Below, piece by piece: positions 839-54,883 of a stretch of DNA of 56,403 nt. Source of the stretch: a virus; the IMG/VR virus record IMGVR_UViG_3300048584_000026, positions 1-56,403 of that record. The stretch is one strand, 5' to 3'. Both the position numbers and the translations under genes were made by a program. Below the pieces are notes generated by a model. The model was given only the letters and a program-made list of their open reading frames with translations, was not told where the DNA came from and made no database searches. Position 1 is the first letter of the stretch. Every line of letters begins with the position of its first letter.

Positions 839-3012
839 CAATCCTTCTTATATACCTTGCCTTCGTACCCGGCTGCACCCAGAGGCATTGTGCGTAGGAA
901 CTCGAACTGCTCTTGAATAGCCTTTGTCATGCAATGGCGCAATCCGGGGAGACCGTGAACTTCGTCGTCCTCGTCCTCCTCGGAAATGATTTCGTCGTGG
1001 ACGTGGCCGCAGATGTAGTAGCCTGCCGCGTGGGCCGCAAGCATCCCGAAGCCCAGAATATCGCGAGCGAGCGCCTGCACGAAGTTCTCGATGAACTTGC
1101 CGCCGTGGCTTTCGATTCGCTTCCATTGCTGGGTGATCTGGTCCTTGCCCATGTACGAGATATTGGTGCGCCAGTATGTCCCGTACTTGCCTTCTGCCTC
1201 GTACTTCTCGACACGAAGCTGGTAGTACCACATCGACCGGCCAGAGGGGAGGCCGACGCGCAGGAAGGGCTTGACGATCTGGAACTCCAGATGGCCCCAT
1301 TTGACGATCTTGCCGCCCGCCAGCATCGCGCGCTCGATGGTGTCCTCGATCTGGTACCAAGCGTTCTTGATCTCGCTGTAGGTCTCCCGGAACACTTGCA
1401 CGGCCCGGTTGGCCTCCTCACGGGTCATCTGGACGCCCATGCCCTCTGCATAGCCCCAGAGGCCCGTTTTCTCGCCGTCTCGTAGCTCCCCGCCGGACAG
1501 CCGGTACCCGGCACCCAGAACGGCTGGCTTGGCCCCTGACCGCTGAGCCTTGGTGACTTCCTCGTACGGCACTCCGTACATGTCGGTCGCAAAGTCCTTG
1601 TAGGCGCACATGCCGTTGCGAAACACGTTCAGGCCGCGCTCGCAGTCCGTTATCCAGAAGATCACGACCGACTCAATCGACGAGAGGTCGCAGACAACCA
1701 GCTTCTTATCCTGCGACGCCTGAATCGTGGATCGCACACAACCGGCCACGGCGTCCATTTGCTCGCCCGCGAAAACGCCCAGCGTCTCGTAGTCCCCGGT
1801 CTCGATCAGGTGATTGCAGAAGTCGAGCCGGTCGAAGTTGATGTGGTCCTCTGGTTCGAGCCACTTGGGCGTCCGGGGGAGGTTCTGCGGCTGGAGGGCG
1901 CGGCCCGCCCAGCGGTTCGTGCGTGACCCGCCTGCGAACTGGAAACAGTGTCTCAGGCGGTCATCATCCGCCAGACGGTCCATGACCGCCTCGTACTTGG
2001 TCGTAGATGTCTTGCTGGACGCCTGCCGCATCCGCATGACAACCCGGCAGTCCGGCATCAGGGAGCCTTCGCCTTGGACTTGGCCTAGTGCGTCGAGCCG
2101 CGCGTCAGGGTAGCACGGCACCAGCCCTTTGTTGCGCTCCTCTGGGGACGCGGCAAGGTAGCTCCGAACGCCTGCTTCTTCGGCGGCAAGCGTCTTGACG
2201 ATGTTGGCCTTCTGGAGGTTCCCGTATGGGTATCCTCGCTCCTGTAGCCACGGGAGAAGCTGCGCGCCGCTGTTCGAGTTCGCGAGGCCGGTGATACGGT
2301 TCTGCTCGGAAATGAGTTCCGTCTTGCGGCGGTCAGCGATAGCCAGAGCGTTTTCGACGAAGCGCCGGTTGATCGGCAAGCCCCGGTCGTTGATGATCTG
2401 ATCGAGTTCGTAGAGGTCCCACTGGAAATCCGGCACACCGAACCGGATCAGCTTGGACCAGACCTCTTTCTCGGAGTCGTTGTCCCGGATGCAGTACTTC
2501 TTGAAAATCTCCCAGTCCTCGGGATCGCTGTGCTGGTCACGCCAGACGAAAGGCTGATTCTTCGTCGGCTTGTTGGGCATACAGAACTCACGAATGAGCG
2601 CCCGGCCACGGGGGTCCTTCTTGTGCTTGAGTGACATCTGCTCGGCGATGTCGTCAAGGCCGCCCATGAAAGAGAACATGTAGGCGAGCGCCATGGAGCA
2701 ACGCCACGGCTTGTAGTCATGCTCGACCTCCAGCCCGATCTGCCGGGCGAGGACGCGCCAAGTGATCCACCGCTCGAACTGCGCGTTGAACGCGACTTTC
2801 AGGACCTCGGGGTCGCGCATGGCGTCCTTGAGGTCTCTGGGGATCGGCTGGCCTTCGGCAGGCACCCATAGCTGCGTTGCGTCGTCGTCCAGAGACCACG
2901 AACACATGAGAACCTTGGTCGAAGGGTTAGCCGAGTAGAGGTCGATCCCTGCGGTAAGGAGATCGACCTCGCTGGCTACTTCGAAGTCGTGGTGAAGTCT
3001 GGTCTGTGCCAT
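838..3012 (-). CDS. DNA polymerase, family A, with 3'-5' exonuclease domain
   Basis: The product has 724 residues. Exonuclease motifs are visible: DFEV near residue 9 (usually DFET), FNAQFERW near 95 and YCIRDND near 172. Polymerase motif A is CDLSSIE in mid-protein, motif B is the RSGAKPAVLGAGY helix and motif C is HVHDE near 671-674. It lacks a 5'-3' exonuclease domain, as is usual for phage family A enzymes. It should be the replicative polymerase, working with the primase-helicase at 6033 and the DUF2815 protein upstream. The start has only a weak ribosome site. A site of the dispersed palindrome (982-994) falls directly on the motif C codons and is read as EIIS. Confidence 0.95.
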   Translation of the reverse strand: MAQTRLHHDFEVASEVDLLTAGIDLYSANPSTKVLMCSWSLDDDATQLWVPAEGQPIPRDLKDAMRDPEVLKVAFNAQFERWITWRVLARQIGLEVEHDYKPWRCSMALAYMFSFMGGLDDIAEQMSLKHKKDPRGRALIREFCMPNKPTKNQPFVWRDQHSDPEDWEIFKKYCIRDNDSEKEVWSKLIRFGVPDFQWDLYELDQIINDRGLPINRRFVENALAIADRRKTELISEQNRITGLANSNSGAQLLPWLQERGYPYGNLQKANIVKTLAAEEAGVRSYLAASPEERNKGLVPCYPDARLDALGQVQGEGSLMPDCRVVMRMRQASSKTSTTKYEAVMDRLADDDRLRHCFQFAGGSRTNRWAGRALQPQNLPRTPKWLEPEDHINFDRLDFCNHLIETGDYETLGVFAGEQMDAVAGCVRSTIQASQDKKLVVCDLSSIESVVIFWITDCERGLNVFRNGMCAYKDFATDMYGVPYEEVTKAQRSGAKPAVLGAGYRLSGGELRDGEKTGLWGYAEGMGVQMTREEANRAVQVFRETYSEIKNAWYQIEDTIERAMLAGGKIVKWGHLEFQIVKPFLRVGLPSGRSMWYYQLRVEKYEAEGKYGTYWRTNISYMGKDQITQQWKRIESHGGKFIENFVQALARDILGFGMLAAHAAGYYICGHVHDEIISEEDEDDEVHGLPGLRHCMTKAIQEQFEFLRTMPLGAAGYEGKVYKKD

Positions 3013-3757: not shown

Positions 3758-5044
3758 TCACGAGTTACCGATGGCATCCGTTTCATCATCGAAAGCGGAT
3801 ACCGCTGACGCGATCCCTTCCCGTTTATCGGAACTGGGGATCATCGTCACTTTCCCCGGCGGCTGGTGAACGAAAGGCGCAATGCGCTTGTCGTTCGCCT
3901 TAAGACTGCCGCCGAGAGAAACCCTTAATAGCTGAACTGCCTGCGCAGGGGAAATGAATTTTTGCTCGTACATGTCGAGATCAGTAATACCGCGACCGCG
4001 AAGCATACGACGAGCAGCCGCTTCGTCTGTCCATTTACGGTTTCCGGCCCGGCCCATCCCGAGTTTTTGTCCCGGAACTTCGACATCCATTTCCAACTTC
4101 TTAAGCAAGTAGTCGTACATCTCCCGGAAATACTTCTCCAGAATCGGTCGCCACTCATAAATCTGGGCAAGACGCTCGACCGGGACTTCGCTGTACACTG
4201 GGAGACGTAGTTCGGAAACCATTTCCTGTTCTATCACGGCCACGGCTTGAGCCGGGGACATCTCGTTGTCGTCGAGATCGTCGAAACTGGCCGCCGCGAG
4301 CTTGACGTTTACCGCTGCCAGCGCCGGACAAGTGAACCGGGCAGGGCAGTACTCGCAGGCAATCGGATCGGGGTTGTACGGTGCCTCTGGGTCCCATGCC
4401 TTGTGAGCAGCCGCCCGGTAACGCTCTCCGAACTCAAGAAGCTGGTCGCGCGTGATGGTCCAGACATCGTAATTCTCTCGACGCGGTTGCACGATCTGGA
4501 TTTCGATCTCTTGGAAGTCGTACAGCCAGTCAAGCTCCTCGAACGCGCCAAGCGCGTAAGCCTGCCCCTGTTCGTTGTCCTCTGCATCCACCCAGACCTT
4601 GCCGTATTTGAGGTCCTTGACCCGCAGCTTGCCCCACTCGGCGCTGATGTGGTCCGAAGTCCCGAAGCTCGGAACGGGGGTGTACTTGGATAGATCGACC
4701 TTGACTTCGACGTAGTGCTTGCCCGGCATAGTCGAGACGAGCGAAACGTATTCTTCGACGTAGGAAATCATTTCCTCGGTGATCTCGATCTCGAACCCGT
4801 CCTTGGTGTGAACGGTGCCGAGATACCGATATGGGTTCCCGCTGGTCAGCCACTCCTCGGCAAGCCAGTGAGCGATAGAACCTTCGGCGGCGTAATAGCT
4901 GGGGTTATCGCCCGCCAGATGACCGGCGATCAGTGATCGCGGGCATCGCATCCAACGGTGTGCGCTGGACGGCCCAAAGATCGAGTGACCCGTGGCGTTC
5001 TTGTCCGCGAGCATCTGATCTGTGATAGGATGATGTTCGGACAT
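3758..5044 (-). CDS. DUF2800-family nuclease (Cas4/RecB-like, Fe-S)
   Basis: The 428-residue product has the DUF2800 signature GPSSAHRWMRCPRS near the N-terminus and a C-terminal cysteine cluster CEYCPARFTCPA. Together with the first cysteine (MRCP) these resemble the Fe-S ligands of Cas4/AddB-type PD-(D/E)XK exonucleases. It probably processes DNA ends for recombination-dependent replication, together with the neighbouring DUF2815 protein. The start codon lies five bases after a perfect 24-bp hairpin whose last GGGG is the only plausible ribosome site. Palindrome sites at 4214 and 4763 lie inside the gene and encode EMVS and EMIS. Confidence 0.85.
   Translation of the reverse strand: MSEHHPITDQMLADKNATGHSIFGPSSAHRWMRCPRSLIAGHLAGDNPSYYAAEGSIAHWLAEEWLTSGNPYRYLGTVHTKDGFEIEITEEMISYVEEYVSLVSTMPGKHYVEVKVDLSKYTPVPSFGTSDHISAEWGKLRVKDLKYGKVWVDAEDNEQGQAYALGAFEELDWLYDFQEIEIQIVQPRRENYDVWTITRDQLLEFGERYRAAAHKAWDPEAPYNPDPIACEYCPARFTCPALAAVNVKLAAASFDDLDDNEMSPAQAVAVIEQEMVSELRLPVYSEVPVERLAQIYEWRPILEKYFREMYDYLLKKLEMDVEVPGQKLGMGRAGNRKWTDEAAARRMLRGRGITDLDMYEQKFISPAQAVQLLRVSLGGSLKANDKRIAPFVHQPPGKVTMIPSSDKREGIASAVSAFDDETDAIGNS
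4214..4226. repeat. Dispersed 13-bp palindrome, perfect copy (GGAAACCATTTCC)
   Basis: This matches GGAAAYNRTTTCC at every position. It lies inside the DUF2800 gene, where it is read as EMVS. See the finding on the genome-wide family. Confidence 0.75.
4763..4775. repeat. Dispersed 13-bp palindrome, perfect copy (GGAAATCATTTCC)
   Basis: Perfect copy inside the DUF2800 gene, read as EMIS on the minus strand, 549 bases from the copy at 4214. Confidence 0.8.
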
Positions 5045-6032: not shown

Positions 6033-8504
6033 ATGGCCGCACGGCGCTACATGGAGGAGTTCGGCGTTAAGATCGCCGGGAACGGGTATGAGGTCATCCC
6101 GATCATTCCCGGCGAAAAACGCCCGGCGGGTAAGAACTGGCAGAAGCTCGCCGGTACGGTAGAGGGGGTCCACGACTACCTCGCCGACGGCAAAGGCGAT
6201 CACGGGATCGGCATTAAGGCCCGTCTATGCCCCAGCGTTGACATCGACGTTCTGGACGAGGCGGTAAACGCTGAAATCCAGCAGATCGTTCTGGATATAG
6301 TCGGTGATACGCCCCTAAAGAGAATTGGTTTCGCGCCGAAGGTCCTTTGGGTCTACCGGGCCGAGAAGGACTCGATGTTCCCGAAGGTCGATACCGGCAT
6401 GTGGGTTGATTCCCAAGGTCGGTCATCGAAGGTAGAAATCCTTGCCGACGGCCAGCAGTTTGTCGCGGCGCACATCCACCCAGACACAGGCAAGCCGTAC
6501 AAGTGGCTGACGGATTCACCGCTGACCCTAGGCCGATCTGATCTGCCGGTGCTTACGCACGAGCAGGCGAACCAGATCAAGGAGAAGGTCCTCCAGCTTT
6601 TCCTAGCGCACGGCTGGACCAAGAAATCCAAGAACGCGATCACGCGGCTGGTCAACCCTCTCGACGACGACGATCCGTTCAGCGCCTACAGGCCCAAGGT
6701 CCAGATCGGCGACCGGGAGCTTGAGCGCAAGCTGTTCCAGATCAAGGACAACACAGACCACGATGTCTGGGTCCAGATCGGCATGGCGCTGTACCACCAG
6801 TACGACGGAAGCGAGCAGGGTTTCGAACTCTGGGATCGTTGGTCCTCCAGCGCACACAATTACAGCGAGGAGGAGTGCCGCAAGCGTTGGCCCAGCTTCT
6901 CGAACAAGGACAATTCGCACACGCCGATGACGTGTCGGATCATCCTCAAGCTCGCCAAGACTTCCGAGAAAGAGGAGATCGAGGAGAAGTCCAAGGACTT
7001 CGCCGACCGGCTGGCTCTGGCGGGCAGCACGGACGAGCTTGTCGCGGTTTGCGACGAGATCAAGGTGACAGAGTTCCCGAACCACGTCCGGGAGCTTATC
7101 ACCGGCAAGGTCCGCGCCAACTGGAAGCGGCTCACCGGGGACAACCCACGTATCGGTTTCATCCGTGAGCTTATCCGGTTCGAAAACCGCGAAATCATTT
7201 CCGCTCCGCCGTGGGTGAAGCCGTGGGTCTACTGCTCGCAGACCGACGAACTGTTCAACATGGTGAACCGCACCCAGCTTGACCGGGCAGCCTTTAACGT
7301 GGCCCACGCCCGGTTCATGCTCACACCGCAAGAGCGGCTGGAGGGCAAAGCGGTCCCGGAGACCCAGCCTGTTGACGCCGTGGTGAACCTGTTCCAGATT
7401 CCGGTCGTCTACAATCGCATGTTCATGCCCGGTCAGCCGACCCTCTACTCCATGGACGGGATCGACTACGCGAACAGCTACACCGAAGAAGGTATCCCGG
7501 AGCTTCCGGGGAACCTGTCCCCGGTCGAAGAAGAAGCGATCCAGATATTCCTCGGCCACTTGGAGCATATCATCGCCAACGAGAACGACCGGCGTATCTT
7601 CCTCGATTTCCTGACCTACATCGTGAAGAACCCCGGACAGCGGATTAACTGGGCGATCCTGTTGCAGGGCGCAGAGGGCGACGGTAAGTCGTTCTTCTCC
7701 GTCGTTCTGGAGGCCGTTCTGGGTACCAACAACATCAACATGATTGCCGGGAACGCGCTGGAGGAAAAGTACAACCCATGGGCCGAGAACGCCCTCGTCT
7801 GCTTCATCGAAGATGTCCGGTTGCATGGCGCTAATCGCTTCGACGCGATCAACACGCTCAAGCCGATGATTACGAACAGCCGCGTCTCGATCCGGCGGAT
7901 GCAGACGAACATCTACACGGTCGTCAACACGATGAATTACATCCTGACCGCGAACGTGAAGGACGCTATGCCGGTCGGCGACGAGGACAGCCGTATCTTC
8001 CCGATCTTTACCCGGTTCCAGCGGTCGAGCGATCTGGACCGCTTCAAGACAGACAACCCGCACTATTACGACCGGCTGTTCGCGATCCTCCAGTTCGCCG
8101 GGGCGCTCCGCCAGTTCTTCTTGCTGCGGAAGATCAGCCCCGACTTCAATCCGAAGGCCCGTGCGCCCAAGTCGAGCTATCGCCGCGAGATGATCCTGCT
8201 GAACAAGTCGGAGGAGGTCACGGCTCTGGAGGACACGCTGGAGGTCAGCGATCAGCCGGACTACAGCGAGTTCCTGCTGGACAGCGGCAAGCTTGCCGAT
8301 CACTTCATGGGAACCGATGCTCTCGCCCCGCGTAGTAAGGCTCTGAGCCGTCTGTTGAGCCAGTATGGGTTCACGCTGCTGGGGCGCTTCAAGGTGAACG
8401 GAGAGAAGCGCCAGTATTGGTCAATGAAACCGTGGGCGTGGCCTGAGGACGACAACAAGCGCGGTGACGCGATTCGGGACTACCTCGATCCGGAGGGCTT
8501 GTGA
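6033..8504 (+). CDS. Bifunctional primase-polymerase/helicase
   Basis: The product has 823 residues. The N-terminal Prim-Pol domain shows the metal-binding SVDIDVLD motif (D70, D72) and SSKVEILADGQQFV. A PriCT-2-like segment follows around residues 240-290 (YHQYDGSEQGFELWDRW). The C-terminal SF3/D5-like helicase has Walker A GAEGDGKS near 546-553 and a Walker B-like ALVCFIED. It should prime and unwind DNA at the replication fork. There is no separate primase or DnaB-type helicase in the window, consistent with this fused form. A one-mismatch palindrome (7190-7202) is read as EIIS. Confidence 0.93.
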   Translation: MAARRYMEEFGVKIAGNGYEVIPIIPGEKRPAGKNWQKLAGTVEGVHDYLADGKGDHGIGIKARLCPSVDIDVLDEAVNAEIQQIVLDIVGDTPLKRIGFAPKVLWVYRAEKDSMFPKVDTGMWVDSQGRSSKVEILADGQQFVAAHIHPDTGKPYKWLTDSPLTLGRSDLPVLTHEQANQIKEKVLQLFLAHGWTKKSKNAITRLVNPLDDDDPFSAYRPKVQIGDRELERKLFQIKDNTDHDVWVQIGMALYHQYDGSEQGFELWDRWSSSAHNYSEEECRKRWPSFSNKDNSHTPMTCRIILKLAKTSEKEEIEEKSKDFADRLALAGSTDELVAVCDEIKVTEFPNHVRELITGKVRANWKRLTGDNPRIGFIRELIRFENREIISAPPWVKPWVYCSQTDELFNMVNRTQLDRAAFNVAHARFMLTPQERLEGKAVPETQPVDAVVNLFQIPVVYNRMFMPGQPTLYSMDGIDYANSYTEEGIPELPGNLSPVEEEAIQIFLGHLEHIIANENDRRIFLDFLTYIVKNPGQRINWAILLQGAEGDGKSFFSVVLEAVLGTNNINMIAGNALEEKYNPWAENALVCFIEDVRLHGANRFDAINTLKPMITNSRVSIRRMQTNIYTVVNTMNYILTANVKDAMPVGDEDSRIFPIFTRFQRSSDLDRFKTDNPHYYDRLFAILQFAGALRQFFLLRKISPDFNPKARAPKSSYRREMILLNKSEEVTALEDTLEVSDQPDYSEFLLDSGKLADHFMGTDALAPRSKALSRLLSQYGFTLLGRFKVNGEKRQYWSMKPWAWPEDDNKRGDAIRDYLDPEGL

Positions 8505-10258: not shown

Positions 10259-10711
10259 TCAGTTTCGCTCCTTGTTTTCGGCCATGGTTTGCATCAGGCG
10301 GGCCGCGTCGATGATGTGGTCCAGATCGAGATCGGCGAGCAGCAGGAACTCGCCCGAGATCGGGTTGCGGATGTACAGGGGCTTAGCGTTCGAGTTCCCT
10401 GTGATCTCCAGCAGCCGGAACCCATAGGCCGCCGCGTTCGATAGCACGACCGCAAGCGGCTCGATCTGGTCCATGCGAACCGGGAGAACGACACGGCCTG
10501 CGCGAATGTCAGCGTCCCCGACGACCTGTTGCTTTTCGAGGAAGGCGCTCAGATCGCGCCGAACCGCCTCGTCGTTCAGGTGCCGCAGGCGGACCTCGTA
10601 CACCGCCTCTTTGTTCAGGTACCGTTTCAGCCGCTCGAACGCCAAACCCATCAGGATCGAGGTCCCCGCGACAGCGGTGCCGAACGCAATGATTTCGGGA
10701 ATCGTTTCCAT
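10259..10711 (-). CDS. Putative membrane-anchored small protein
   Basis: The 150-residue product has one hydrophobic N-terminal segment (about residues 5-25, IIAFGTAVAGTSILMGLAF). A soluble domain follows with mixed helices and a short strand region (GRVVLPVRMDQIEPLAVVLS). AAGAAGGAC lies just upstream. The first codons carry two adjacent degenerate copies of the dispersed palindrome (10697-10709 and 10685-10697). Function unknown. Confidence 0.6.
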   Translation of the reverse strand: METIPEIIAFGTAVAGTSILMGLAFERLKRYLNKEAVYEVRLRHLNDEAVRRDLSAFLEKQQVVGDADIRAGRVVLPVRMDQIEPLAVVLSNAAAYGFRLLEITGNSNAKPLYIRNPISGEFLLLADLDLDHIIDAARLMQTMAENKERN

Positions 10712-11101: not shown

Positions 11102-11929
11102 TCAGGCTGCCTTCGGTCGGTTGATGTAGGTGAGGGGTTCCCCGTTCTTGTCGTAGGTATGCTCGACCACGGTTGCCTTGCAACGAGTCTTGCTTCCCCT
11201 GACATAGTGACGAGACCCTTCTTCTCCCTGCCGCAGGAAACCTAGCAGCCGGGGCGACGACTTGGTGGCGATCTTGCAGCCGTTCTCGTCGGTGCAGAGC
11301 GTCCAGTGCGACATGATATGCGGGAACTCGCTGATAAGTCGGCTCTGGGTGTGGATCAGAGTCAATTCGAAATCGCGGCGCTCCTTGATCGTGCCAACAT
11401 GGCGAGCAGCGGCCACTCGGGCGCGTTCCTTCTCGTTGCGCTCGATGATCTGGTTCACGACCTCGATCTGCCGGTCAGTCGGCTCCTTGGCTTCCACGAC
11501 GATACGATCCCGGATCGACTGGAGTACTTCGACCTCACCGTGCGCCAGTTCCGCGTCGATCCGGGCGATGAAACCCTCGTTCCCGGAAATGATTTCCGCC
11601 CGCTGGGCGTCACGGCGCTCCTGCTCGATCCGAGCGGCCTCGGCCCGAGCAGCGGCCTTCTTCGCGGTCCGCTTCTCAGCCGCCGCGTCCAGCCGGGCGT
11701 TCTGCTCCGGGGTGTAGAGCTTATGGGTCTCGTTGACCGGATCAATACCGGAGCCGCCGCAGCGATAGCACTTCCAGCCGGTGTTGCTGCCAGCCGGTCC
11801 CCAAGCATCCGATCCGCCTGCGCCGCCGCAACGAACGCACTTCCGCGAGCAGATGTGCAGCGGCTTACCGTTCTTGTCGGCGTGGGTGGCCCGGAGAGCC
11901 TGACCAGATCGGTTGTAGAGGATGACCAT
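11102..11929 (-). CDS. Phage protein with N-terminal DnaJ-like zinc finger
   Basis: The product has 275 residues. Two CxxCxGxG-type elements, CVRCGGAGG and CYRCGGSG, form a likely zinc-binding module at residues 35-62. A long charged coiled coil follows (about 80-190, rich in Ala, Arg and Glu), then a C-terminal domain ending NGEPLTYINRPKAA. Related zinc-finger/coiled-coil proteins are frequent in phages without known function. It is the first gene of the leftward 8.6-11.9 kb unit and starts 85 bases from the iteron array. A perfect palindrome (11585) encodes EIIS. Confidence 0.65.
   Translation of the reverse strand: MVILYNRSGQALRATHADKNGKPLHICSRKCVRCGGAGGSDAWGPAGSNTGWKCYRCGGSGIDPVNETHKLYTPEQNARLDAAAEKRTAKKAAARAEAARIEQERRDAQRAEIISGNEGFIARIDAELAHGEVEVLQSIRDRIVVEAKEPTDRQIEVVNQIIERNEKERARVAAARHVGTIKERRDFELTLIHTQSRLISEFPHIMSHWTLCTDENGCKIATKSSPRLLGFLRQGEEGSRHYVRGSKTRCKATVVEHTYDKNGEPLTYINRPKAA
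11585..11597. repeat. Dispersed 13-bp palindrome, perfect copy (GGAAATGATTTCC)
   Basis: Inside the zinc-finger protein gene, read as EIIS on the minus strand. Confidence 0.8.
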
Positions 11930-12346: not shown

Positions 12347-12525
12347 TCGGATGCCTCGTTCATAAAAGTCGGTCAGACTCATTAACAGAAATTCGTTCGA
12401 CCGGGTGCGGCCCTCCAGCACCCGAAAACCGGCATCGCCAAGCTTCGTTTGCACAGATCAGACAGGAACTTGGACCAACTTCGGAAATGATTTCGCGATC
12501 CGGAAATGCCTAGGAGCAGATAACC

Positions 12526-12538
12526 GGAAATCATTTCC
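12526..12538. repeat. Dispersed 13-bp palindrome, perfect copy (GGAAATCATTTCC)
   Basis: Non-coding copy near the candidate origin. A one-mismatch copy lies 43 bases away (12483-12495) and a half site GGAAAT lies between them at 12502. Confidence 0.8.
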
Positions 12539-14386: not shown

Positions 14387-14632
14387 TTAGGCCGCCCAGC
14401 TAGGGCGGGTTCCGTTGAATAGATAGGCCCTGCAATCGTCTGCCATTGCGAGGGCCGCCGGTCCGTCGTCCGCCTCAGGACAATCTGTGTCTACCAGATC
14501 ACCACGCGAGTCGAACTCAAACCAGTAAGCGCGGGACGCCCTGAGGCTTGAACACGGCCACCCCCGGTTAAAGCTCGCAACGCCCGCCGCAGAAACCCGG
14601 ACCTTGTTTCCGGAAATGATTTCTACGCCCAT
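14387..14632 (-). CDS. Small orphan protein (81 aa)
   Basis: The ATG overlaps the upstream stop as TAATG. The product starts MGVEIISGNKVRVSAAGVASF, where EIISG is encoded by a one-mismatch copy of the dispersed palindrome (14612-14624). A short beta-rich fold is likely (AYWFEFDSRGDLVDTDC). Function unknown. Confidence 0.6.
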   Translation of the reverse strand: MGVEIISGNKVRVSAAGVASFNRGWPCSSLRASRAYWFEFDSRGDLVDTDCPEADDGPAALAMADDCRAYLFNGTRPSWAA

Positions 14633-15550: not shown

Positions 15551-15749
15551 TTTTCGACTCCTTGGAAACGGTTTCCGGGCGGGCCTCGCGCGTTGCGGCG
15601 GCCCAGCCGTCTAAAAGGCCCTTTGCGTACCCGCTCGCCCATAGCAGGGCGAGGGCGGGCAACATAAAGGCGAGAAAGTACCGGCGGGCGTACCGTCTAC
15701 AGGCGGCCCAGTTAGCGGCGGATTCCTCGGGCGCGAGGGGCCTCAGCAT
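15537..15749 (-). CDS. Small single-pass membrane protein (70 aa)
   Basis: The ATG overlaps the upstream stop (TAATG). The product has one hydrophobic helix, YFLAFMLPALALLWASGYA, at about residues 24-42. The C-terminal codons ETVSKESKN carry a perfect palindrome site (15564-15576) and the AAGGAGTCGA ribosome site of the next gene. Function unknown. Confidence 0.6.
   Translation of the reverse strand: MLRPLAPEESAANWAACRRYARRYFLAFMLPALALLWASGYAKGLLDGWAAATREARPETVSKESKNASI
15564..15576. repeat. Dispersed 13-bp palindrome, perfect copy (GGAAACGGTTTCC)
   Basis: Variant with C/G at the inner arm positions, read as ETVS inside the small membrane protein gene and 14 bases upstream of the next start codon. 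Confidence 0.65.
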
Positions 15750-17464: not shown

Positions 17465-18510
17465 GCCCGGACCTCACGGGCGAGGGCCGCGCGTCCCTCA
17501 GCGGTGGAATCGTAAATATCGACTCCATATCGGGCGGCCATGGCGCGGGCCGCGCGTTCCGCGTCCGGGTACCGGGGGGCGTATTGGATAGCGTCAACGG
17601 GCGAGCCGTCCGCAGTCTCAGCCGCAACACGATAACAGGGCGAGCCGTCCGCCTCAGCGTCCGCCACTGTGATACGCTCCACGCGGGCGAGCGGGTCCGC
17701 CTCGCAAGGGTCAAGGGCCGCCAGAATGGATTGCACCACGTCCCGCGCGCCACCTGTCAGGCCGCCGCGCGTTTCTCGCGCAATCTGCGCAGCCCTTGCG
17801 ATACGTGAGGCGGGCGAGGGTTCCGCGCCTGCGGTACCGAGGGCCGCGTAAGCCCCTTTGACGGCTGAATCCATTTCATCCCGCGCGCTATCGCCCGCCG
17901 GGCCTATGCAATGCGCAGTCTCATTAGCCACGATTGCGAGGGTTAGCAGGGCCTCGCGCAACCCGTCCGCCTCAGCCTTGAGAGGCGCAAGGGCGTTGCG
18001 TTCGTCCGCAAGGGCGGCCATCCGCCGCAGTTCCTCGCGCGCCATCCGGCGGCCCTCGCCCGTGCCATGCATCAAGGCAATCTCAATAACGCCCGCCGCA
18101 GTTGCCCAGTTCGATTCAATGGAAACGGTTCCCGCAGTCTCAGGCCCGGCGGGTACGGGTTCCGGTTCCGCGCCCTGCGATTCCACGAACGCGGCAAGGT
18201 CCCGCGAAAATTGCCGCCTAATCGCGGCCCGCCACATAACCCGCTGATTTTCAGGCAACGCGCGGCCATGCAACCCGGAACGGGTCCGCAACTCCACGTC
18301 AACGCTGACCCGCTCGCCCGTTGCCGCGTTGCGGTCAAAAGTCCGAACGACTTCCCCCCAGTACTCGCGCCCGCTGTGTTCAAAGCGGAACGCCTGCGAA
18401 TGAGTGCGGCCCCGTTCGCGCCAGTAACCCGAGGCGCGAACGACTGGCCCGAAGTAGACAGTCAAGGACTCGCTGAGGGTCCGCGCGGTTTCATCCCGGT
18501 GAATTTTCAT
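17461..18510 (-). CDS. First gene of the leftward orphan operon (349 aa)
   Basis: ATG at 18510 with GGAG eight bases upstream is preferred. The N-terminal 110 residues look like a beta-rich domain (YFGPVVRASGYWRERGRTHS). The centre is helical and Ala/Glu-rich (residues about 140-290), and a compact alpha/beta C-terminus shows PCYRVAAETADGSPVDAIQY and YPDAERAARAMAARYGVDIY. No known family. Being first in a tight chain of small genes, it is likely made early. Confidence 0.65.
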   Translation of the reverse strand: MKIHRDETARTLSESLTVYFGPVVRASGYWRERGRTHSQAFRFEHSGREYWGEVVRTFDRNAATGERVSVDVELRTRSGLHGRALPENQRVMWRAAIRRQFSRDLAAFVESQGAEPEPVPAGPETAGTVSIESNWATAAGVIEIALMHGTGEGRRMAREELRRMAALADERNALAPLKAEADGLREALLTLAIVANETAHCIGPAGDSARDEMDSAVKGAYAALGTAGAEPSPASRIARAAQIARETRGGLTGGARDVVQSILAALDPCEADPLARVERITVADAEADGSPCYRVAAETADGSPVDAIQYAPRYPDAERAARAMAARYGVDIYDSTAEGRAALAREVRA

Positions 18511-22909: not shown

Positions 22910-22922
22910 GGAAATCATTTCC
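22910..22922. repeat. Dispersed 13-bp palindrome, perfect copy abutting a start codon
   Basis: GGAAATCATTTCC ends immediately before ATG 22923, and its left arm (AAAGGAAA) also serves as the only Shine-Dalgarno candidate. A protein bound here at DNA level, or a hairpin in the mRNA, would affect the next gene directly. Confidence 0.8.
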
Positions 22923-37117: not shown

Positions 37118-37936
37118 CTAAAAGACTGGCGACCCGTCAAAAGGCGACTTACCCGGTAGGTGCGGGAAGCCGCCGAAATTGGCGAGGTTGTCAAACCGCT
37201 TGCACGAAGCCGTGTCGCGGGAGCAACCCGGATAGAGCGTTACCTCACTCCCGAGCGAAAGTCCACTGGTCGATCCGAAAACCCGGAAATCATTTCCGTT
37301 CTGGAACTCTATCCCGTATCGCTGGAAGCTCCCGTCCTCGCGGATGAACTCAGCGAAGCCCCCGGTAAAGCTCCCTTCGGCGGGGGGAAGGTACGTCGTG
37401 ACGGTGAAGTTGGTCCCGCTCAGGGTCTCGATGGTGTGGGGATAGGCGTGGAGACTCTTGTTCACACGGCAACCGAACTCGGAGTACAGGACGTGGGGAC
37501 ACATCCGCCCCCATGCCAGCCGAAGGCCCTGCCGGTCGTACGACCCCCCTAGAGACCGGCAAGTCATCTGCGCAGCCGCTTGGTTATCGGCCACGGCGGC
37601 GTTCACGACCGTCCCGGACCAGAGCAGCGGTGTCTCCTCGTCCGGGTCGCCGATGTGCCAGCGCCGAACCGAGAGCCAGACTTTACCGGAAAGCTGTCCG
37701 TTCCGGAAGATCGCTGCGACCGGGTTGTCTGCTTGCACGGTGATCTGCAAGTCGTTTTGGTCTGAGCCGCCTTGTGTCACGCCTTCGTCCGAGATCACTT
37801 GCGCAGTCCAGACGTGGCCGTTTACCGTGCGGTCCTCGTCGTCCGTGCAGTAGCGCCAGTACGTGTTTCCATACCGGAACTCATACAGGGCAACCGGGCG
37901 AGCCTGTTGATTGGAGATTTCGAGCGGGCTGAACAC
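37118..37936 (-). CDS. DUF2163/BR0599-family tail protein
   Basis: The 272-residue product starts with a beta domain (ALYEFRYGNTYWRYCTDDED). It ends with PGCSRDTASCKRFDNLANFG and GFPHLPGKSPFDG, the characteristic cysteine-containing end of BR0599-type proteins. Related proteins act in the tail baseplate or hub of siphoviruses and gene transfer agents. A perfect palindrome (37285) is read as GNDF. Confidence 0.85.
   Translation of the reverse strand: MFSPLEISNQQARPVALYEFRYGNTYWRYCTDDEDRTVNGHVWTAQVISDEGVTQGGSDQNDLQITVQADNPVAAIFRNGQLSGKVWLSVRRWHIGDPDEETPLLWSGTVVNAAVADNQAAAQMTCRSLGGSYDRQGLRLAWGRMCPHVLYSEFGCRVNKSLHAYPHTIETLSGTNFTVTTYLPPAEGSFTGGFAEFIREDGSFQRYGIEFQNGNDFRVFGSTSGLSLGSEVTLYPGCSRDTASCKRFDNLANFGGFPHLPGKSPFDGSPVF
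37285..37297. repeat. Dispersed 13-bp palindrome, perfect copy (GGAAATCATTTCC)
   Basis: Inside the BR0599-type gene. Here the codons read GNDF, a frame different from the usual EIIS, which argues for selection on DNA rather than peptide. Confidence 0.8.
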
Positions 37937-39652: not shown

Positions 39653-42600
39653 TTGAGAACCTGCTTGATGGTGTCCTTGTTCTGCCGAATCACGGTCAGG
39701 ATCGACTTCTGCCCAGACCGGCTCTGCATAGCGTTAGGGACTGCGCCCGGATCAAGCAACAGCACTTGCTTGATGTTGCTGCCGCCGCTGTCTCCGCCGC
39801 CGCCTTTGCCCAGATTCCGGATGTGCCGAGGATCGTCCTCGGTCAGGACCTCCTCGCCCCGCTGGAGGACCGCCTTGTACTCGTCCGGGCGCAGACCCAT
39901 GCCCCCGCCTCCATGGAACTTGGGCGCTCCGAGCCAGCTATTGCTGCCGCCCGTGCGCCGCTGACGGCTGGCCCCGCGACTGCCGACCACGCCGCCGTCG
40001 TGGAACAGGAAGGACAGCAAGCCGCCGCCTCCGCCCCCAGCCGGGACGCCAAGGATCGACTGAGCGATCTGCAAGGCGATCATCTGGATAAGCACTTGGG
40101 CGATGGCCTCAAGGATGCTGCCGAACACACTCAATGCGGTGCGCCCGAGGTTGCCCAGCGCGTCCCCGAAGCTCTCCGTACCCGAGATCAGGCCGAAGAT
40201 AGACTGAGCTACCGCGTTGAACGCCTGCGCCACCCCATTCTGGATCGCCTGAGAGGCCGCTGCGTTGACTTGCTGCAAGCGAGGGTCGATCTGGGCCAGA
40301 CCAGCCTCTACCGCGTCCAGACGGGCCAGCCATGTCGCGTAGGCAATGTCCGTGAGGACCGGCAGATTGGTCAGCGGGTCGATAGTCGCGTTCAGGAGCG
40401 CCGCCTGCTCGCGCAACTTGGTCAGGACTGGCTCAATGGCCGCTGCCTGCTGGGCGTATGCCTCGGTCGTGAGGTCCCGCACTTCGGCGTCCGTACGCAG
40501 GCCAAGCTCGAACAACGCCTGATACGACCGCACGAGTTCGTCCCGCTCGCGAATCAGCGTATCGAGTTCGGCACCAGCCGCCTCGAATCCCGCAAGCCCG
40601 ATGTCTGCCGCAGCGCGGTCGATGGCCTCCCCGGAGATAATGCGTTCGAGAGAAGCGATCCACGAAACCATTTCCGGCGACGGCGTAGCCCCGGCGATAG
40701 CGCGCGCAACGGCCAGTGCCTTTTCAGCAGCGGTCACGATCTGGGGCGACAACCGGCGCGTCACTTCCTCGGCCTGTGCCATAGCCTCCGTCGTCGAGAT
40801 CGCCCCGCGCGCCTGAGCCTCGGAGATACGCTCAAGCTCGGCCACGCGCTGCTTGTCGAGCAGGGCAGCCTGCTCTTGGAAGAACTTGATGCGTTCCTCG
40901 TCTTTGAGGCGCTGCTTGGTGGCTTCGACCTGACGCTCGATGGCCTCGAACGACATGCCGTCCTCGCTCGCGGTCAGACCGAGACCACGCGCCCGCTCAA
41001 GGCTATCGGCGATGTTCTCGTACTTCTCGTCGATAGCCGTCAGGCGCTCCTCCAACGAAGCCGAGACGCCTGCGAAAGCTGCCCGGTTCAACTGGCGAAG
41101 CTGACCCTCCAACTGACGCAGAGCCGATTCACGTTTGCGATCTTCGGCAGCCTGCGCACGGGCCGCCCGGTTCTGCGCCGCTGCTGCTCGGCGGCTGGAG
41201 GCGTTCGCACTACGGGACGACTTCGCATTTTCGTCATTGATCTTGCGCTGCTCGGCAGCCGTCGCCTGCTGGACCGCACGATCCTCCAAGGCTTTGCTGA
41301 CGCCTGCGTTCTGGGCGCGACGGCGGGCGTCTACCTCTACCCGGCGAAGCCGCTCCTCCTTGGTGAGTTCCCGGCTGGACTCAACCTCGTCGTCAAGCTC
41401 CTGCCGGAACCGGCGATCCCGAATCTGCTGATCGCTCGCTCCTCGGGCCGGGGCCGGGGTCAGGCCGCGCTGCTTCCGGATGACCTCGAAAGCGTCCTCC
41501 TGTGCGCCTGCGATGCCTTTACCAGCCAGCAGGCCGGTCAGGAACGTGAAGCCCACAATGGCCGAATTTACCCGGCTCTCGATGCCATCCAGAATAGGGC
41601 CGAAGATACGACCGAGGAAGTCAGCGAAATTGCTGAACGCGCTCTGGAGGTTCTTGACCGCCGGAGTCCACTCGGACTGGGTTGCCTTGGCGATCTGGGC
41701 GTTACGCTCGGCCACGCGGTCAAGCACGAACTGGCGCGCTTCGCCTGCCTTGCCAGCCTCAAACAGAGCTTGCGCGTGATCCAGATCGGCTTCGGTGAGA
41801 TCGTTCGTCCGTTCGGCAAGCTCCAGAACCGCGTCGATCCCGCCTTGCTGGACATCGACGAGCAACTGCGTTGCCTCCACCACGTCGATCCCCAGCCGCT
41901 CTGCCAGCCGCCCGGCGGCCTCGGCGTAGGTCTCGATGGAGTCGGTGTCGAAGCCCTCCTCCACGAGCAGGAGCATGGCGCTGCGGGCCTCGTCAGCGGA
42001 CTTGGCAACCCCCTCCAGTTTCTCCTGTGCATCGGCAAAGCGTTCGGCGTCGATCCCGGCACCCAGCGGCGCGGCAGCAAGGTCCTCCTGCGCCTTCTTG
42101 AGTCGTTCAGCGTCTTGGGCAAGCTCGAAAAACGCAGCGCCGACCGCGACCGCGATAGCGATAAGCGGGAAGAACCGCAGGACCAGCTTAGCGACACTGG
42201 AGATCAGGCCGGGGAAAATCTGGCTGATCTGGGAACCCTGCTGGATAAGAACCGTGAGCGGGTTCTGGCCCGCCTGCAAGCTCACGAAGATGTCTTGAAG
42301 CTGGAAGTTCAGGTTCGCCAGATCATTCGGCTTGAGGCCGAACAAGGCGTTGGTCTCCCGGCCCCCGCGCCCGAGAGACGTGTTGATCCGGTCCGTAGCC
42401 ACGCTAACGCGCTGCGCCGCAGCCTCCAGTCGTGCTTGCTCGTTTGCCAGATCGGCGGTGCTGATACCGGCCCGGCGAAGCGACTGCCCCAACTGGTCGA
42501 GCCGGTTGTCCTCTATAGCCAGAGCGCGCCCGGTTTGCTCCAGACGGGCTTCGGCCTGCCGAAGTGAGTTCGCAAGCTCCTCGGTCGGCTTCTCGGCCTG

Positions 42601-43880: not shown

Positions 43881-44560
43881 TTAGTCCTCAAGCTCGCGCA
43901 GTAGTTTCTCGAACGCCTTTACAGCCTTTTTGCCTCCCATGAAAGAAGCAGACGCGACATGCTGGTCTGCAATCATCTGGAAAGCCATCTCTCGGCGCTT
44001 GACGGTTCGAAGAAGTTCTTCCTCGTTGGCAAGCTTGCCGAGAGCGTATCGGTGTGCGTCCGGGTGGCCGTTTGCCTTTAGGTGGCTGACGGTTTCGCGG
44101 ATGTTGCGATAATAGTCTGCAACGATGTCATCAGGGGTCCCGGCGGAAGGCCGTTTGCCTCCAGCAGACTTGCCACGACCCCCGCGAGCTTTCCCAACTC
44201 GATCCCGCCATCCTCGACCGAGAGCAGCGCGATTGCCTTGAGAGCTTCGATCTGCTTCACGAATGACAGTCGCCGGAACTTCTCAACATCGTCCGGCGAT
44301 TCTGCTTCGGCGCAACGGGAAATGATTTCCACGACCATAGACGGGAAGTCCTTGGCAAGCTCCATGACCAGATCGGCCACGCGGTCCTTCGGGAGGACCG
44401 GGCGCTTACCAGAGTACTTGGAGACGACCTTCTTCATGTCCTCCAGATAGTGCATCGTGAGGAACGTCACGTCCTCCGAGTTCATGCCCCGGACGGTGAA
44501 GAAGCCGCCCTTGGAGCCTACCTCGATCCGGGTAGTCTCGATCTCAAAATTAACTGCCAT
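43881..44560 (-). CDS. Tail assembly chaperone GT fusion by -1 frameshift
   Basis: The T part has no start codon of its own. It is open from the slippery heptamer GGGAAAG (44195-44189) to TAA at 43883-43881. A -1 slip after the G-frame codons for ELGK yields the continuation ARGGRGKSAGGKRPSAGTPD, with the end EKLLRELED. This is the lambda G/GT layout, directly upstream of the tape measure. The fusion should bind both the tape measure and the tube protein. Confidence 0.85.
44078..44560 (-). CDS. Tail assembly chaperone G-like protein
   Basis: ATG 44560 follows AGGAGTCGAT. The 160-residue product begins MAVNFEIETTRIEVGSKGGF and is alpha-helical toward the end. It is located between the tail tube and tape measure genes, as all siphoviral chaperones are. 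A perfect palindrome (44318) is read as EIIS. Confidence 0.85.
   Translation of the reverse strand: MAVNFEIETTRIEVGSKGGFFTVRGMNSEDVTFLTMHYLEDMKKVVSKYSGKRPVLPKDRVADLVMELAKDFPSMVVEIISRCAEAESPDDVEKFRRLSFVKQIEALKAIALLSVEDGGIELGKLAGVVASLLEANGLPPGPLMTSLQTIIATSAKPSAT
44189..44195 (-). promoter_or_regulatory. Slippery heptamer GGGAAAG for -1 frameshift
   Basis: In the zero frame the codons are TTG GGA AAG, so the heptamer is correctly phased (X XXY YYZ). It is identical to the lambda G/T slippery site. Confidence 0.85.
44318..44330. repeat. Dispersed 13-bp palindrome, perfect copy (GGAAATGATTTCC)
   Basis: Inside the tail chaperone gene, read as EIIS on the minus strand. Confidence 0.8.
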
Positions 44561-45437: not shown

Positions 45438-45986
45438 TCAATTCTCCTCAACAAAGGGCATAGCAAGGTCAGTCACATTCCCGACTGAGATGGGCATGTA
45501 GAAGTATGCGGTGTCTGATACAGCATCTTTGCCCGGTCGCACAATAGGAATTTGATACCGGACATCAGCGACAAGTCCCCCGAGTCGCCACTCATTCGGG
45601 TAGAGGCCCCCACGGCCTCCGTTTTTCTTCTCCGTGGTGATGCGGGCGAGCCGCATCTGGGTCCACGCCAGAAGCGAGTACGCCGGGTCGAGCGGGTGCT
45701 TCTGATCGTCGTTCGCGAAGCCTTGGATAAGTATGGTCCAGTCCTCGCCCTGTATCAGGCCCACGCCCGCGCCGTTAGGGTCAAGCTGGCGAGGGGCCTC
45801 CAGAATAGCGAGAAACGGGTTCTGCACTTCGTCACCGAACTCAAGCCGACCGCGAAAGACGCTGGAACTCAGATCGTACGGGCAGACAACCCCCTGCATC
45901 TCGTCGGGTAGATCGGTCCAGTCTGGCGTGATCCCCTCAAGATGGGAGGTCAACGCTTTCAGAATTGCGAGCTTCTTGGAAATCAT
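45438..45986 (-). CDS. Tail terminator/completion protein
   Basis: The 182-residue product has KALTSHLEGITPDWTDLPDE at the N-terminus and GLIQGEDWTILIQGFANDDQ, similar to tail terminator proteins that cap the tube. The ATG start itself lies inside a one-mismatch palindrome (45978-45990); the first residues are MISKK. GAGG is nine bases upstream. Confidence 0.65.
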   Translation of the reverse strand: MISKKLAILKALTSHLEGITPDWTDLPDEMQGVVCPYDLSSSVFRGRLEFGDEVQNPFLAILEAPRQLDPNGAGVGLIQGEDWTILIQGFANDDQKHPLDPAYSLLAWTQMRLARITTEKKNGGRGGLYPNEWRLGGLVADVRYQIPIVRPGKDAVSDTAYFYMPISVGNVTDLAMPFVEEN

Positions 45987-45995
45987 TTCACAACC

Positions 45996-49196: not shown

Positions 49197-49244
49197 GGTG
49201 TGTGTCTCCTTGTGAAATGGTTTCCATGGAGAGCAGGATCAGGC

Positions 49245-52674: not shown

Positions 52675-52684
52675 GGGCCAGTCC

Positions 52685-54883
52685 TCAAGCAATCTTGGAA
52701 GCGATTTCGCTCAGGTCATAACGGGTTTTCTTGCGCTCTGCAAATGCTTCGCTGCCCTGCCGGATGATAAACGGGTTGTCGGGGTCGTCCGGATCGGCCC
52801 AGACCGGAACTCGGTTCCAAAAACTAGGCCGCTCGCAGCGGATGTACTTGGTCATACATAGACCAATGGCGTAATACAGCAAGTCCCATGCTTCGTTGTT
52901 CCTGACGCCGGGTGCTTTGACCCAGCCCTTTTCTTTCAGGACCTCGGAGCAGAACTCCTTGAACAGCCAAGCCGGGTTCCACTTGGGGATTCTTACCATG
53001 CCTTTATTAGGCACTTCGGAGGAAAGTCTGTTGTTCGCTTCGTTCTTCAACTGATTCGAGTTCAACTGCCAGACCGGAACGTCACCGCGCGCCGTGGCAA
53101 GGTTCTTCCTGTCACTGGCGTCAGGGAAAGTCTCCCGGACCTGAGGCGCGTTGGGCGTACCCGTACCCTTGAGCAGCAGGAAACGATTTCCGAGTCCAAC
53201 AGCCTTGAGGGTGCGCCAGAACGCATAAGCGTTCGCAGTCACGCCAGCCTTACCCCCGGAGTCGCAACCCGCGATCCGGATAGCCATACGCGTATCACGA
53301 CCCTGCATAGGGTAGCTGCGCTTCACGACTTGATCTGTCAGGAGGTCCCAGTCCTCTAGGTAGGTCCCCGGCTTGACCCACTGGACATCGCCATCCTCGT
53401 CCTTGCGCTTCGACTTGCGAATGTCGAACCGCTCCACCAGCACGAGGTCATAAGGCTCGCCGGGAACAACGCCCCAGACCTGTACGACGAACATGTTCTT
53501 CTGCACGTCGATAGTAGCCAGAAGAAAAGCGATCTCGGAAATGATTTCAATCTCGCCGGTCTCAGGGTTGCGTCCGAAGTCCTCCGCCCGAGAGATCAGG
53601 TCCTCTGGGGTGCGTTCGGCTTCGGCAGCCTTCGGCTTATAGGGCCGCCCCAAGTCGGTGTTGTAGAACTTGCGCAGCGGCTCCTCGTTCAGTGTGGAGT
53701 CAAACTCCTCCTCCGCTGTCAGGTATGCTGCGACCAGTTTCGGCCAGTTGGTGAAGGCCGCAGAGCATCCCTCCAGCCAATAGCTCGCATACTTCGACCG
53801 GCGGGGATTGCCGATGACGCGGCCTGCCTCGATCCGGCAGCCGTCAGGCAGCCAGAGACCGTTCTGGGCGAGCGTGAACCGCTCGTCAGGGTGAATCTTG
53901 CCCTCGCAAACAGGACACTTGAGGCGGACGGTCTCGGCGGCATCAAGGCCGTTCGCAAACGGGTCCCACTCCAGCAGTTCAAACCGAGGCTCGAAATACT
54001 CGCCACATCTGCCGCAAGGAATGTACCAGCGCCGACGGTCGCCGCGATTGTACAGGGCCAGAATCCCCGTGGTCGGGGGTGCCTCGTGCGCTGTCTTGGG
54101 GACGTAACGAAAGTCCGTAATCGCGCGGCTGGGGGAGGACTCGCAGAGGGTCATCGCGAAAGAGCCGTACGAGGTCGTGCGCTTGGTCGCCAAGTCGAAA
54201 GGGTCGCCTTCCCCGTCGATGTCATCCTCCATGCGGTCGCGGTCAGTCAGCGCGATCCGGGGGATAGGCTTACCGGCGAGTTCGGCTTTCGTCGGCCACG
54301 CGAGGCCAAGGATCGTTCCGTTCTTGTAGTGCTTGTCGAACTTGTTGTCCGCGTCACGGCTCTCCAGAAGCTCTTTGCCCACAAGCTCAGAGTCCCGGTG
54401 CAAGCGGTCGATACGCCGGTTTGAGAAGTCGCGGGCGTTGCCCTGCGTCGGGGAGAAGATGGTCATGTCCGACGGCTCTGCGCGAACCGAGTAGCCTGCC
54501 CAGTTCAGGATCAACTCGGTTTTGCCGCACTGGGCCGGACCCACAAAGATAACCGCATCAAGCTCCGGGTCCACCAGCTTGTCCAACGGCTCCCGAAGGT
54601 ACGGCGCATACGAAAAGCGCCAAGGCCCGACGTAGCCCGGCGCGTTGTTCAGGTAGCGTTCTTGCTCCGTCCATTCAGACGGCTTACGGTGATCGGGATC
54701 GAGCCATATCTGCTCGACGGTCCGGCAGACTACATCACCGAGATCGCTATAGCCCGTTATACTGGTCCTCGGTTTCCGGGGAGCCAAGAAGGCCAGTTCC
54801 TCGCTCGTCAACCGGCTCGTGTTCACGAACGAGGAGAGGGCCGTCAGGTCCATGTCCTGCGTCGTACTCGGGGCCGTCGCCAT
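52685..54883 (-). CDS. Terminase large subunit, GpA family
   Basis: The product has 732 residues. The N-terminal ATPase has Walker A GPAQCGKT (115-122) and a following SVRAEPSDMTIFSPTQGNAR. A zinc-type cluster CGRC (near 285) and CPVC (near 320) is typical of gpA-type enzymes. The C-terminal nuclease has ATIDVQKNMFVVQVWG and AGCDSGGKAGVTANAYAFW. It packages DNA into the prohead and cuts it at the ends. Two palindrome sites lie in the gene (53179 perfect, 53538 with one mismatch). Confidence 0.93.
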   Translation of the reverse strand: MATAPSTTQDMDLTALSSFVNTSRLTSEELAFLAPRKPRTSITGYSDLGDVVCRTVEQIWLDPDHRKPSEWTEQERYLNNAPGYVGPWRFSYAPYLREPLDKLVDPELDAVIFVGPAQCGKTELILNWAGYSVRAEPSDMTIFSPTQGNARDFSNRRIDRLHRDSELVGKELLESRDADNKFDKHYKNGTILGLAWPTKAELAGKPIPRIALTDRDRMEDDIDGEGDPFDLATKRTTSYGSFAMTLCESSPSRAITDFRYVPKTAHEAPPTTGILALYNRGDRRRWYIPCGRCGEYFEPRFELLEWDPFANGLDAAETVRLKCPVCEGKIHPDERFTLAQNGLWLPDGCRIEAGRVIGNPRRSKYASYWLEGCSAAFTNWPKLVAAYLTAEEEFDSTLNEEPLRKFYNTDLGRPYKPKAAEAERTPEDLISRAEDFGRNPETGEIEIISEIAFLLATIDVQKNMFVVQVWGVVPGEPYDLVLVERFDIRKSKRKDEDGDVQWVKPGTYLEDWDLLTDQVVKRSYPMQGRDTRMAIRIAGCDSGGKAGVTANAYAFWRTLKAVGLGNRFLLLKGTGTPNAPQVRETFPDASDRKNLATARGDVPVWQLNSNQLKNEANNRLSSEVPNKGMVRIPKWNPAWLFKEFCSEVLKEKGWVKAPGVRNNEAWDLLYYAIGLCMTKYIRCERPSFWNRVPVWADPDDPDNPFIIRQGSEAFAERKKTRYDLSEIASKIA
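53179..53191. repeat. Dispersed 13-bp palindrome, perfect copy (GGAAACGATTTCC)
   Basis: Inside the terminase gene, read as GNRF, again a frame different from EIIS. Confidence 0.7.

Follow-up and report, generated by a model that had tools for sequence, protein, structure and literature searches.

Dispersed over the genome of a phage recovered as IMG/VR record IMGVR_UViG_3300048584_000026 is a 13-bp palindrome, GGAAAYNRTTTCC, that probably serves as the binding site for a ParB-like protein encoded by the phage itself (27516-28757) and would load that protein genome-wide. We analyzed the whole record of 56,403 bases, referred to here as the window, together with related phage genomes. By computation, the palindromic motif is selected as DNA, is evenly spread along the genomes, and both co-occurs and covaries with the ParB-like gene. 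The co-occurrence and covariation make it very likely that the ParB-like protein binds the palindrome.

A previous reading of the window made without database searches (the sequence-only reading) had reported 13 perfect and 17 one-mismatch copies of the palindrome. All of them are present, and their coordinates were correct apart from one copy placed at 53538, which begins at 53537. The large excess over chance was also borne out, as 30 copies with at most one mismatch were observed and 0.27 were expected (standard deviation, 0.55; maximum of 2 in 100 dinucleotide shuffles). In an unbiased scan of the window, the top palindromic core was GAAAT-N-ATTTC (19 copies versus 0.025 expected). The same reading had counted seven noncoding copies; 9 of the 30 lie outside called genes according to our gene caller, which is rough and is weak at 12 to 19 kb. 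The density within 1 to 29 kb, described as twofold higher, is so for the set with at most one mismatch (20 versus 10 copies) but is weaker for core sites (16 versus 10).

Among the best 30 of 757 records, the window terminase shares 45 to 50% identity with terminases from Casjensviridae and their relatives, e.g., BcepNazgul, AH2, and Carli. Sixteen Casjensviridae-like genomes, the window included, carry the common frame GGAA-X-T-N-A-X′-TTCC, where X is A, G, or C depending on the genome; all are whole or large records. X is A in G000, G001, G002, G004, and Sphingomonas phage Carli (the A class), G in G011, G013, G030, BcepNazgul (Nazgul), Erythrobacter phage R16L, G039, G041, and G045 (the G class), and C in G016 (the C class), while it is A or G in G010 and mixed, mostly G, in G044. 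The center base differs as well: the A class prefers G or C, and the G and C classes mostly have A or T, least clearly in G011. Copy numbers range from 17 in the 36-kb fragment G045 to 72 in G039, with 18 in BcepNazgul. Phage R22L, outside this set of 16, has 25 exact G-class copies. An RNA hairpin is disfavored as the selected element because GGAA and the inner T..A are constant while a single pair varies (an argument from the pattern of variation, with no folding run).

Palindrome scans found no strong array with this frame in 16 related genomes (G009, G012, SS2019XI, phiAxp-2, FoX4, MA12, G005, G023, G029, G057, G053, G050, G062, G018, G051, and AH2), of which G051 is borderline, with eight mixed GAA-N5-TTC palindromes, and was counted as motif-less. 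Terminase loci of ≥12 kb were scanned for any palindrome and loci of ≥4 kb for four exact frames. PM87 lacks the G-class pattern, the only pattern for which it was scanned, and no array was found in RG-2014 and STGO-35-1, which belong to other phage groups, carry ParB-like genes, and stand outside the 16-versus-16 count. Weaker dispersed repeats occur in some motif-less records, namely, CAAC-N5-GTTG in SS2019XI, G005, G057, and G008 (10 to 12 copies) and GACAC-N9-GTGTC in AH2 and G005. In a 3.4-Mb Marinobacter-labeled metagenome-assembled genome (MAG), 33 of 37 perfect copies of the palindrome lie in two contigs (18 and 15 copies), with 4 in all the others. We took these two as phage contigs of this group (L298 and L299; PBRG01000011.1 and PBRG01000048.1), and the shorter one appears to be part of the longer one, as their site spacing is identical. 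Site spacing also suggests that G002 is a piece of a longer phage contig (58 kb) binned in a Marinobacter MAG; it is still counted in the 511 sites, 16 genomes, and 5 A-class rows used below.

The sequence-only reading had held that selection acts on the DNA and not on the encoded peptide, and it had suggested codon-preserving shuffles as a check. When synonymous codons were shuffled within genes and all other DNA was kept fixed, perfect copies fell from 13 to a mean of 5.12 (maximum of 7 in 400 shuffles), a procedure that cannot touch the 5 perfect copies outside called genes. Almost none of the coding copies survive this shuffle. Synonymous conservation agrees with this result. Among degenerate codons with the amino acid kept, identity was 65/69 inside sites and 6985/10967 elsewhere in G001, and it was 46/47 and 4417/6903, respectively, in G002, i.e., 94 to 98% in sites versus 64% elsewhere; in the more distant G004, the figures were 26/36 and 3617/6698. 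The excess is absent in Carli (7/15), R16L (7/15), AH2 (2/7), G009 (4/7), and G005 (4/11), which fits the sites there being elsewhere or absent. The earlier reading had also reasoned that motif-less relatives keeping the peptides would speak against the motif. In the motif-less relatives compared, the outcome favors the motif: identity at window sites is 8/32 residues in AH2, 8/29 in G009, and 12/37 in G005, no higher than the 39 to 40% elsewhere. The palindrome is under selection as DNA, not as peptide.

Profile searches of the 16 motif-bearing and 16 motif-less genomes covered all 66 genes called in the window plus 10 additional frames. Fourteen window genes are present in all motif-bearing genomes, and 13 of these (structural, packaging, and helicase genes) are also found in 15 or 16 of the motif-less ones. 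The ParB-like gene, present in 16/16 motif-bearing and 5/16 motif-less genomes, is the sole universal gene that is not near-universal in the motif-less set. Every scanned motif-bearing contig longer than 30 kb has it. Motif-bearing contigs that lack a ParB hit are all short pieces (≤27.5 kb), and the ParB search covered only part of them. The sequence-only reading had named three genes as possible sources of a binder, and the evidence picks the one at 27516 and disfavors the other two. A GapR-like protein (27186-27482) was rejected as the binder since it was not found in 5/16 motif-bearing genomes, and the product of 5755-6024 is disfavored since its gene occurs in 12/12 motif-bearing and 10/12 motif-less records. 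The methyltransferase, whose gene is present in 11/16 motif-bearing genomes, was also rejected.

The ParB-like protein varies along with the motif. Thirteen alignment columns separate the A-class ParBs from the eleven others, and only column 169 has a single residue on each side, Asn in 5/5 A-class proteins and Asp in 11/11 others. Residue 169 lies within a predicted helix (164-175) of the ParB helix-turn-helix (HTH) in the structural model and aligns with the Asn of the SRxxVxN motif (alignments to chains 4umk and 6sdk). An Asn contacting adenine is classical chemistry. Column 162, which the alignment would place at K171 of Caulobacter ParB, has R or M in the A class versus V, I, or C in the others. 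We infer that residue 169 is the counterpart of N178 of Caulobacter ParB; N178 and K171 contact parS (PMC7383237). On the ParB tree, the A class falls at two places, requiring two changes, and none of 200 bootstrap trees unites it; Carli adjoins G016, a long branch, with support of 84/95. In the ParBs of the motif-less AH2 and G009, Lys replaces Arg165. The tail of the protein has 52 to 94 residues in seven records without the array versus 119 to 193 in the 16 with it. A second, distant ParB-like gene is found in G039 (61628-63229) and G041 (1112-2581), which are among the richest genomes (72 and 43 sites).

The layout of the ParB-like protein comprises a ParB/Srx-type N-terminal domain, an HTH_ParB domain, and a long Lys/Ala-rich tail. 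The HTH_ParB profile PF17762 scores 24.3 bits against a cutoff of 22.6, indicating that a ParB-type HTH is present. A structural model of residues 1 to 275 (mean predicted local distance difference test score, 82.7; 11 sequences) matches KorB (8qa9; Z = 13.1) and Caulobacter ParB (6t1f; Z = 12.5), a tie, as well as Noc (7nfu; 11.9), and KorB is the top match in Foldseek. The model can be aligned to the parts of Noc (6y93) and KorB (1r71) that bind DNA. Its residues 23-135 correspond to the N-domains in both ParB (7bm8) and KorB (8qa8), and residues 23-126 to sulfiredoxin (6ky4). The protein, with a predicted fold of the KorB/ParB/Noc type, is as modeled a member of the ParB/Noc/KorB superfamily. 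Across 11 aligned rows, G86, R89, and N129 do not vary, and they fall at GERR and EN of solved ParBs. As the Glu preceding N129 is mostly absent, CTP (cytidine triphosphate) hydrolysis may differ.

Even spacing is the main feature of the arrays over the 16 motif-bearing genomes. The median coefficient of variation (CV) of spacing is 0.61, compared with 0.91 to 0.98 for random placement; it is 0.38 in Carli, 0.54 to 0.66 in eleven genomes, 0.71 to 0.73 in G039, Nazgul, and G011, and 0.97 in G013. The combined P value for evenness is 2e-18, with 15 genomes taken as independent (G002 excluded, the near relatives G000, G001, and G004 included) and zero P values set to 0.0005. The individual positions turn over while the array remains, as 16/20 window coding sites are retained with at most one mismatch in G001 but only 1/12 alignable ones in Carli. 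An exception is a site 403 to 435 bp before the ParB start in 8/16 genomes, three of them close relatives; in a ninth genome, the site lies 357 bp before the start. Between this site and ParB is a gene of 94 to 108 codons, which is GapR-like where checked (the window, R16L, and R22L).

Although the copies are mostly intragenic, as the sequence-only reading had stated, 211 of 511 sites over the 16 genomes touch noncoding DNA versus 59.8 by random placement (∼3.5-fold), a figure from the rough gene caller that overlooked small genes would inflate. Site centers in tandem, divergent, and convergent gaps number 139, 14, and 13, respectively, versus 131.3, 20.8, and 13.9 expected by gap length, so that divergent gaps are not enriched. 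Among the tandem-gap centers, 53/139 lie 5 to 15 bp past a stop codon. Another 20 are no more than 10 bp from a start, whereas just 5 precede one by 10 to 20 bp. One reading is that the sites are placed where they do the least harm.

On the explanation that we favor, ParB dimers would bind an array of some 20 to 70 sites, on average ∼1 to 3 kb apart along the whole genome, and would probably close into CTP-dependent clamps like other family members. Spreading from these sites would bring every part of the genome near a loading point and cover all of it with a nucleoprotein coat. During infection, such a coat would organize, condense, protect, or mark the DNA of the phage. By analogy with its relatives, clamp loading and spreading of the phage protein is somewhat likely. 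That coating the whole genome, rather than controlling transcription, is the main role has about an even chance of being right. The conserved site upstream of gapR-parB suggests that ParB probably controls its own expression in addition. A more tentative extension, somewhat less likely than not, is that these phages build their own chromatin, in which ParB, in many of the genomes next to a GapR-like protein, is loaded from the evenly spaced cognate sites and coats the replicating DNA, marking it as self, protecting it, and keeping it distinct from host DNA. ParB might dock to the replication machinery through a C-terminal tag that it has in common with the single-stranded DNA-binding protein (SSB).

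Cellular systems offer partial parallels. Like the phage array, the matS sites bound by MatP in Ter of E. coli are a dispersed 13-bp palindrome with a free central base, and their role, genome organization, is a possible one for the phage sites as well; their binder and sequence are unrelated, and they are limited to one chromosome region. The NBS sequence of Noc from Bacillus subtilis differs from the phage motif, and Noc is cellular and acts in division control at the membrane. The likeness is that Noc is a ParB-family protein that nucleates on scattered sites and spreads as a CTP clamp (PMC8429893), as the phage protein would. The specificities of ParB and Noc are set by a few residues of the DNA-binding domain (PMC7383237). 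A genome-wide scatter of sites is present in the phages, where the link to ParB comes from co-occurrence and covariation.

Several observations weigh against genome-wide loading of ParB at the palindrome. KorB-CTP gave no DNA condensation in vitro (PMC11790492). ParB-like genes are present in the motif-less AH2, G009, G051, G057, and SS2019XI, and G012 has a partial match outside the 5/16 count, so the presence of ParB alone fails to predict the motif. The Lys in place of Arg165 is also seen in the motif-bearing G039. Twelve other ParB columns separate A from non-A proteins, and in G010 the motif is mixed (A, 0.65; G, 0.29) although the residue is Asp169. A single clade holds four of the five A-class ParBs, and the well-supported branches of the tree taken alone are compatible with a single origin of the A class. 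By sequence alone, chromosomal ParB chains are the best matches of the phage protein (4umk; 2e-8), with KorB lower (9e-5). Lastly, evenness is not significant singly in 4/16 genomes (G011, G013, Nazgul, and G045).

About a dozen OB sites with the core TTTAGCSGCTAAA are scattered over RK2, a core from which the phage site in the 16 genomes differs. RK2 (IncP) and its KorB protein nonetheless resemble the phage system as a ParB-family protein with its sites on a mobile replicon, and KorB acts from its operators at a distance by sliding (PMC11790492). We consider it unlikely, though well short of negligible, that the palindromes are operators of such global transcription control, with ParB sliding from them to silence or time promoters. 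The Foldseek ranking and the tied top Z score, the conserved site upstream of gapR-parB, and the preference of the sites for noncoding DNA all fit, and KorB represses over >1 kb by sliding (PMC11790492). The phage array, however, has more copies than RK2, regular spacing, and many intragenic sites; it does not favor divergent gaps, many of its sites lie in late genes and in tandem gaps, often just past stop codons, and its positions turn over while the even spacing persists. In a further difference from RK2, searches with PF13614 (ParA) and PF00589 (integrase) found neither in any of the 16 motif-bearing records; the positive control for ParA was found in 14/14 genomes and the integrase search was positive in AH2, and other integration systems were not sought. 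The ParA result also bears on partition: parS sites of a plasmid-like prophage with ParABS would explain palindromes that go with a ParB-family protein, but the dozens of evenly spread sites form no centromere-like cluster, and we regard this as very improbable. A whole-genome role is favored over gene-by-gene control or partition by the even spacing, the turnover, the absence of any preference for divergent gaps, and the failure of the searches to find ParA or an integrase.

The sequence-only reading had drawn an analogy to mycobacteriophage stoperators, i.e., many repressor sites for prophage immunity. Part of it stands, as the cluster A sites are likewise dispersed, with a 13-bp core and similar but drifted motifs in related phages (PMC6550527). 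Stoperators are, however, asymmetric, mostly in one orientation, and bound by an immunity repressor (PMC6550527), whereas the phage sites are palindromic and go with a ParB-like protein; together with the integrase result, the regular spacing, and the turnover, this leaves stoperation with as little probability as partition. Only slightly less improbable is that some other protein recognizes the sites, either one from the host or one that serves the phage in replication, recombination, or packaging. The DNA polymerase gene (838-3012) does track the motif, being present in 15/16 motif-bearing genomes (the single miss is a 36-kb fragment) versus 4/16 motif-less ones. Against such binders, BcepNazgul with 18 copies and AH2 with none infect related hosts, B. 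cepacia and B. cenocepacia. The same motif is shared by Nazgul and Erythrobacter phage R16L, whose hosts are unlike. In one MAG, not an established host, the cellular contigs hold few copies, and the ParB residue that by alignment would contact DNA follows the motif. That the copies are an artefact of peptide or codon usage (EIIS/EMIS) or are copied repeats has next to no probability: most window coding copies do lie in one reading frame, but the codon shuffles, the synonymous conservation, the noncoding enrichment, and the poor agreement of motif-less relatives with the peptides encoded at the sites reject peptide selection. Copying is rejected by the flanks, as the two bases on each side are weakly preferred in most genomes and none of six flanking bases exceeds 0.5 in G044.

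The window encodes its own replication genes (DNA polymerase, SSB/annealing protein, exonuclease, and primase), and its GapR-like gene directly precedes the ParB-like gene within 27186-28757. The GapR-like gene was found in 11/16 motif-bearing and 0/16 motif-less genomes. Together with the Sphingomonas and Erythrobacter relatives, it suggests that the host is an alphaproteobacterium. At the record ends (55615-56403 and 1-110), the helicase gene is cut on the right side. From the R16L gene order, which has the helicase start and a VRR-NUC gene there, ∼1 kb with these two seems to be missing from the record. The phage collection held no near DNA matches to the first 25 kb of the window, no relatives were found in IMG/VR with R16L ParB and Carli terminase as queries, and Nazgul ParB retrieved a single locus, Nazgul's own record. 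Six unlike window proteins, including the methyltransferase, SSB, and ParB, end in -GGL, mostly preceded by an acidic run. Relatives have other common endings, -DDL in G010, -AGL in Nazgul, and -IDI/-DDI in R16L, where the ending is also on the DUF2815 (SSB-like) gene. These common C-terminal endings may be docking tags. The coordinates of all features are given in Table 1.

Table 1. Palindrome copies and associated genes in the window
Feature	Coordinates	Strand	Evidence
ParB-like protein, 413 amino acids, proposed palindrome binder	27516..28757	+	phrog_1033; PF17762; structural model
GapR-like (DUF2312) nucleoid-associated protein gene, directly before parB	27186..27482	+	PF10073 GapR_DNA-bd, 1.9e-34
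Perfect copy, upstream of gapR-parB; candidate autoregulatory operator	27087..27099		
Perfect copy, in exonuclease gene	4214..4226		
Perfect copy, in exonuclease gene	4763..4775		
Perfect copy, coding	11585..11597		
Perfect copy, outside called genes	12526..12538		
Perfect copy, outside called genes	15564..15576		
Perfect copy, in gap before start at 22923	22910..22922		
Perfect copy, in 23946-25004 gene (phrog_6247)	24809..24821		
Perfect copy, outside called genes	32521..32533		
Perfect copy, coding; not retained in G001	34192..34204		
Perfect copy, in gene 37118-37936	37285..37297		
Perfect copy, coding; retained in Carli, altered form in R16L	44318..44330		
Perfect copy, in terminase large subunit gene	53179..53191		
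One-mismatch copy, in DNA polymerase gene	982..994		
One-mismatch copy, in DNA polymerase gene	2308..2320		
One-mismatch copy, in primase gene	7190..7202		
One-mismatch copy, coding	10697..10709		
One-mismatch copy, outside called genes	12483..12495		
One-mismatch copy, outside called genes	14612..14624		
One-mismatch copy, coding; not retained in G001	18121..18133		
One-mismatch copy, outside called genes	18929..18941		
One-mismatch copy, coding	19850..19862		
One-mismatch copy, in acyl carrier protein gene	23583..23595		
One-mismatch copy, coding	26045..26057		
One-mismatch copy, coding	28865..28877		
One-mismatch copy, in tail protein gene	35668..35680		
One-mismatch copy, in tape measure gene	40663..40675		
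One-mismatch copy, across 5′ end of gene 45438-45986	45978..45990		
One-mismatch copy, outside called genes	49213..49225		
One-mismatch copy, in terminase large subunit gene	53537..53549		
-GGL-ending proteins	110-838, 3091-3741, 5232-5597, 10059-10256, 27516-28757, 47059-47460		

Dispersed sites for ParB-family proteins are already known from Noc and KorB; for phages without ParA, phage-directed searches of an open-access library yielded no report of them. Many phages carry an annotated ParB-like protein whose role is unclear, and 224 of 50,697 records match the one from the window. A 2025 survey of the ParB fold mentions phage members and, in its available text, names no such sites (PMC12704722), and a paper on Erythrobacter phages proposes the host chromosome as the target of the ParB-like protein (PMC12185513). 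The present analysis identified, from sequence alone, the likely sites for one group of phage ParBs, and these are present in the isolates BcepNazgul, Carli, R16L, and R22L. The role of a ParB without ParA is therefore directly testable in sequenced isolates. Furthermore, the drifting motif and the matching helix residue provide a natural series for studying the evolution of DNA-binding specificity, in which dozens of sites must change in concert.

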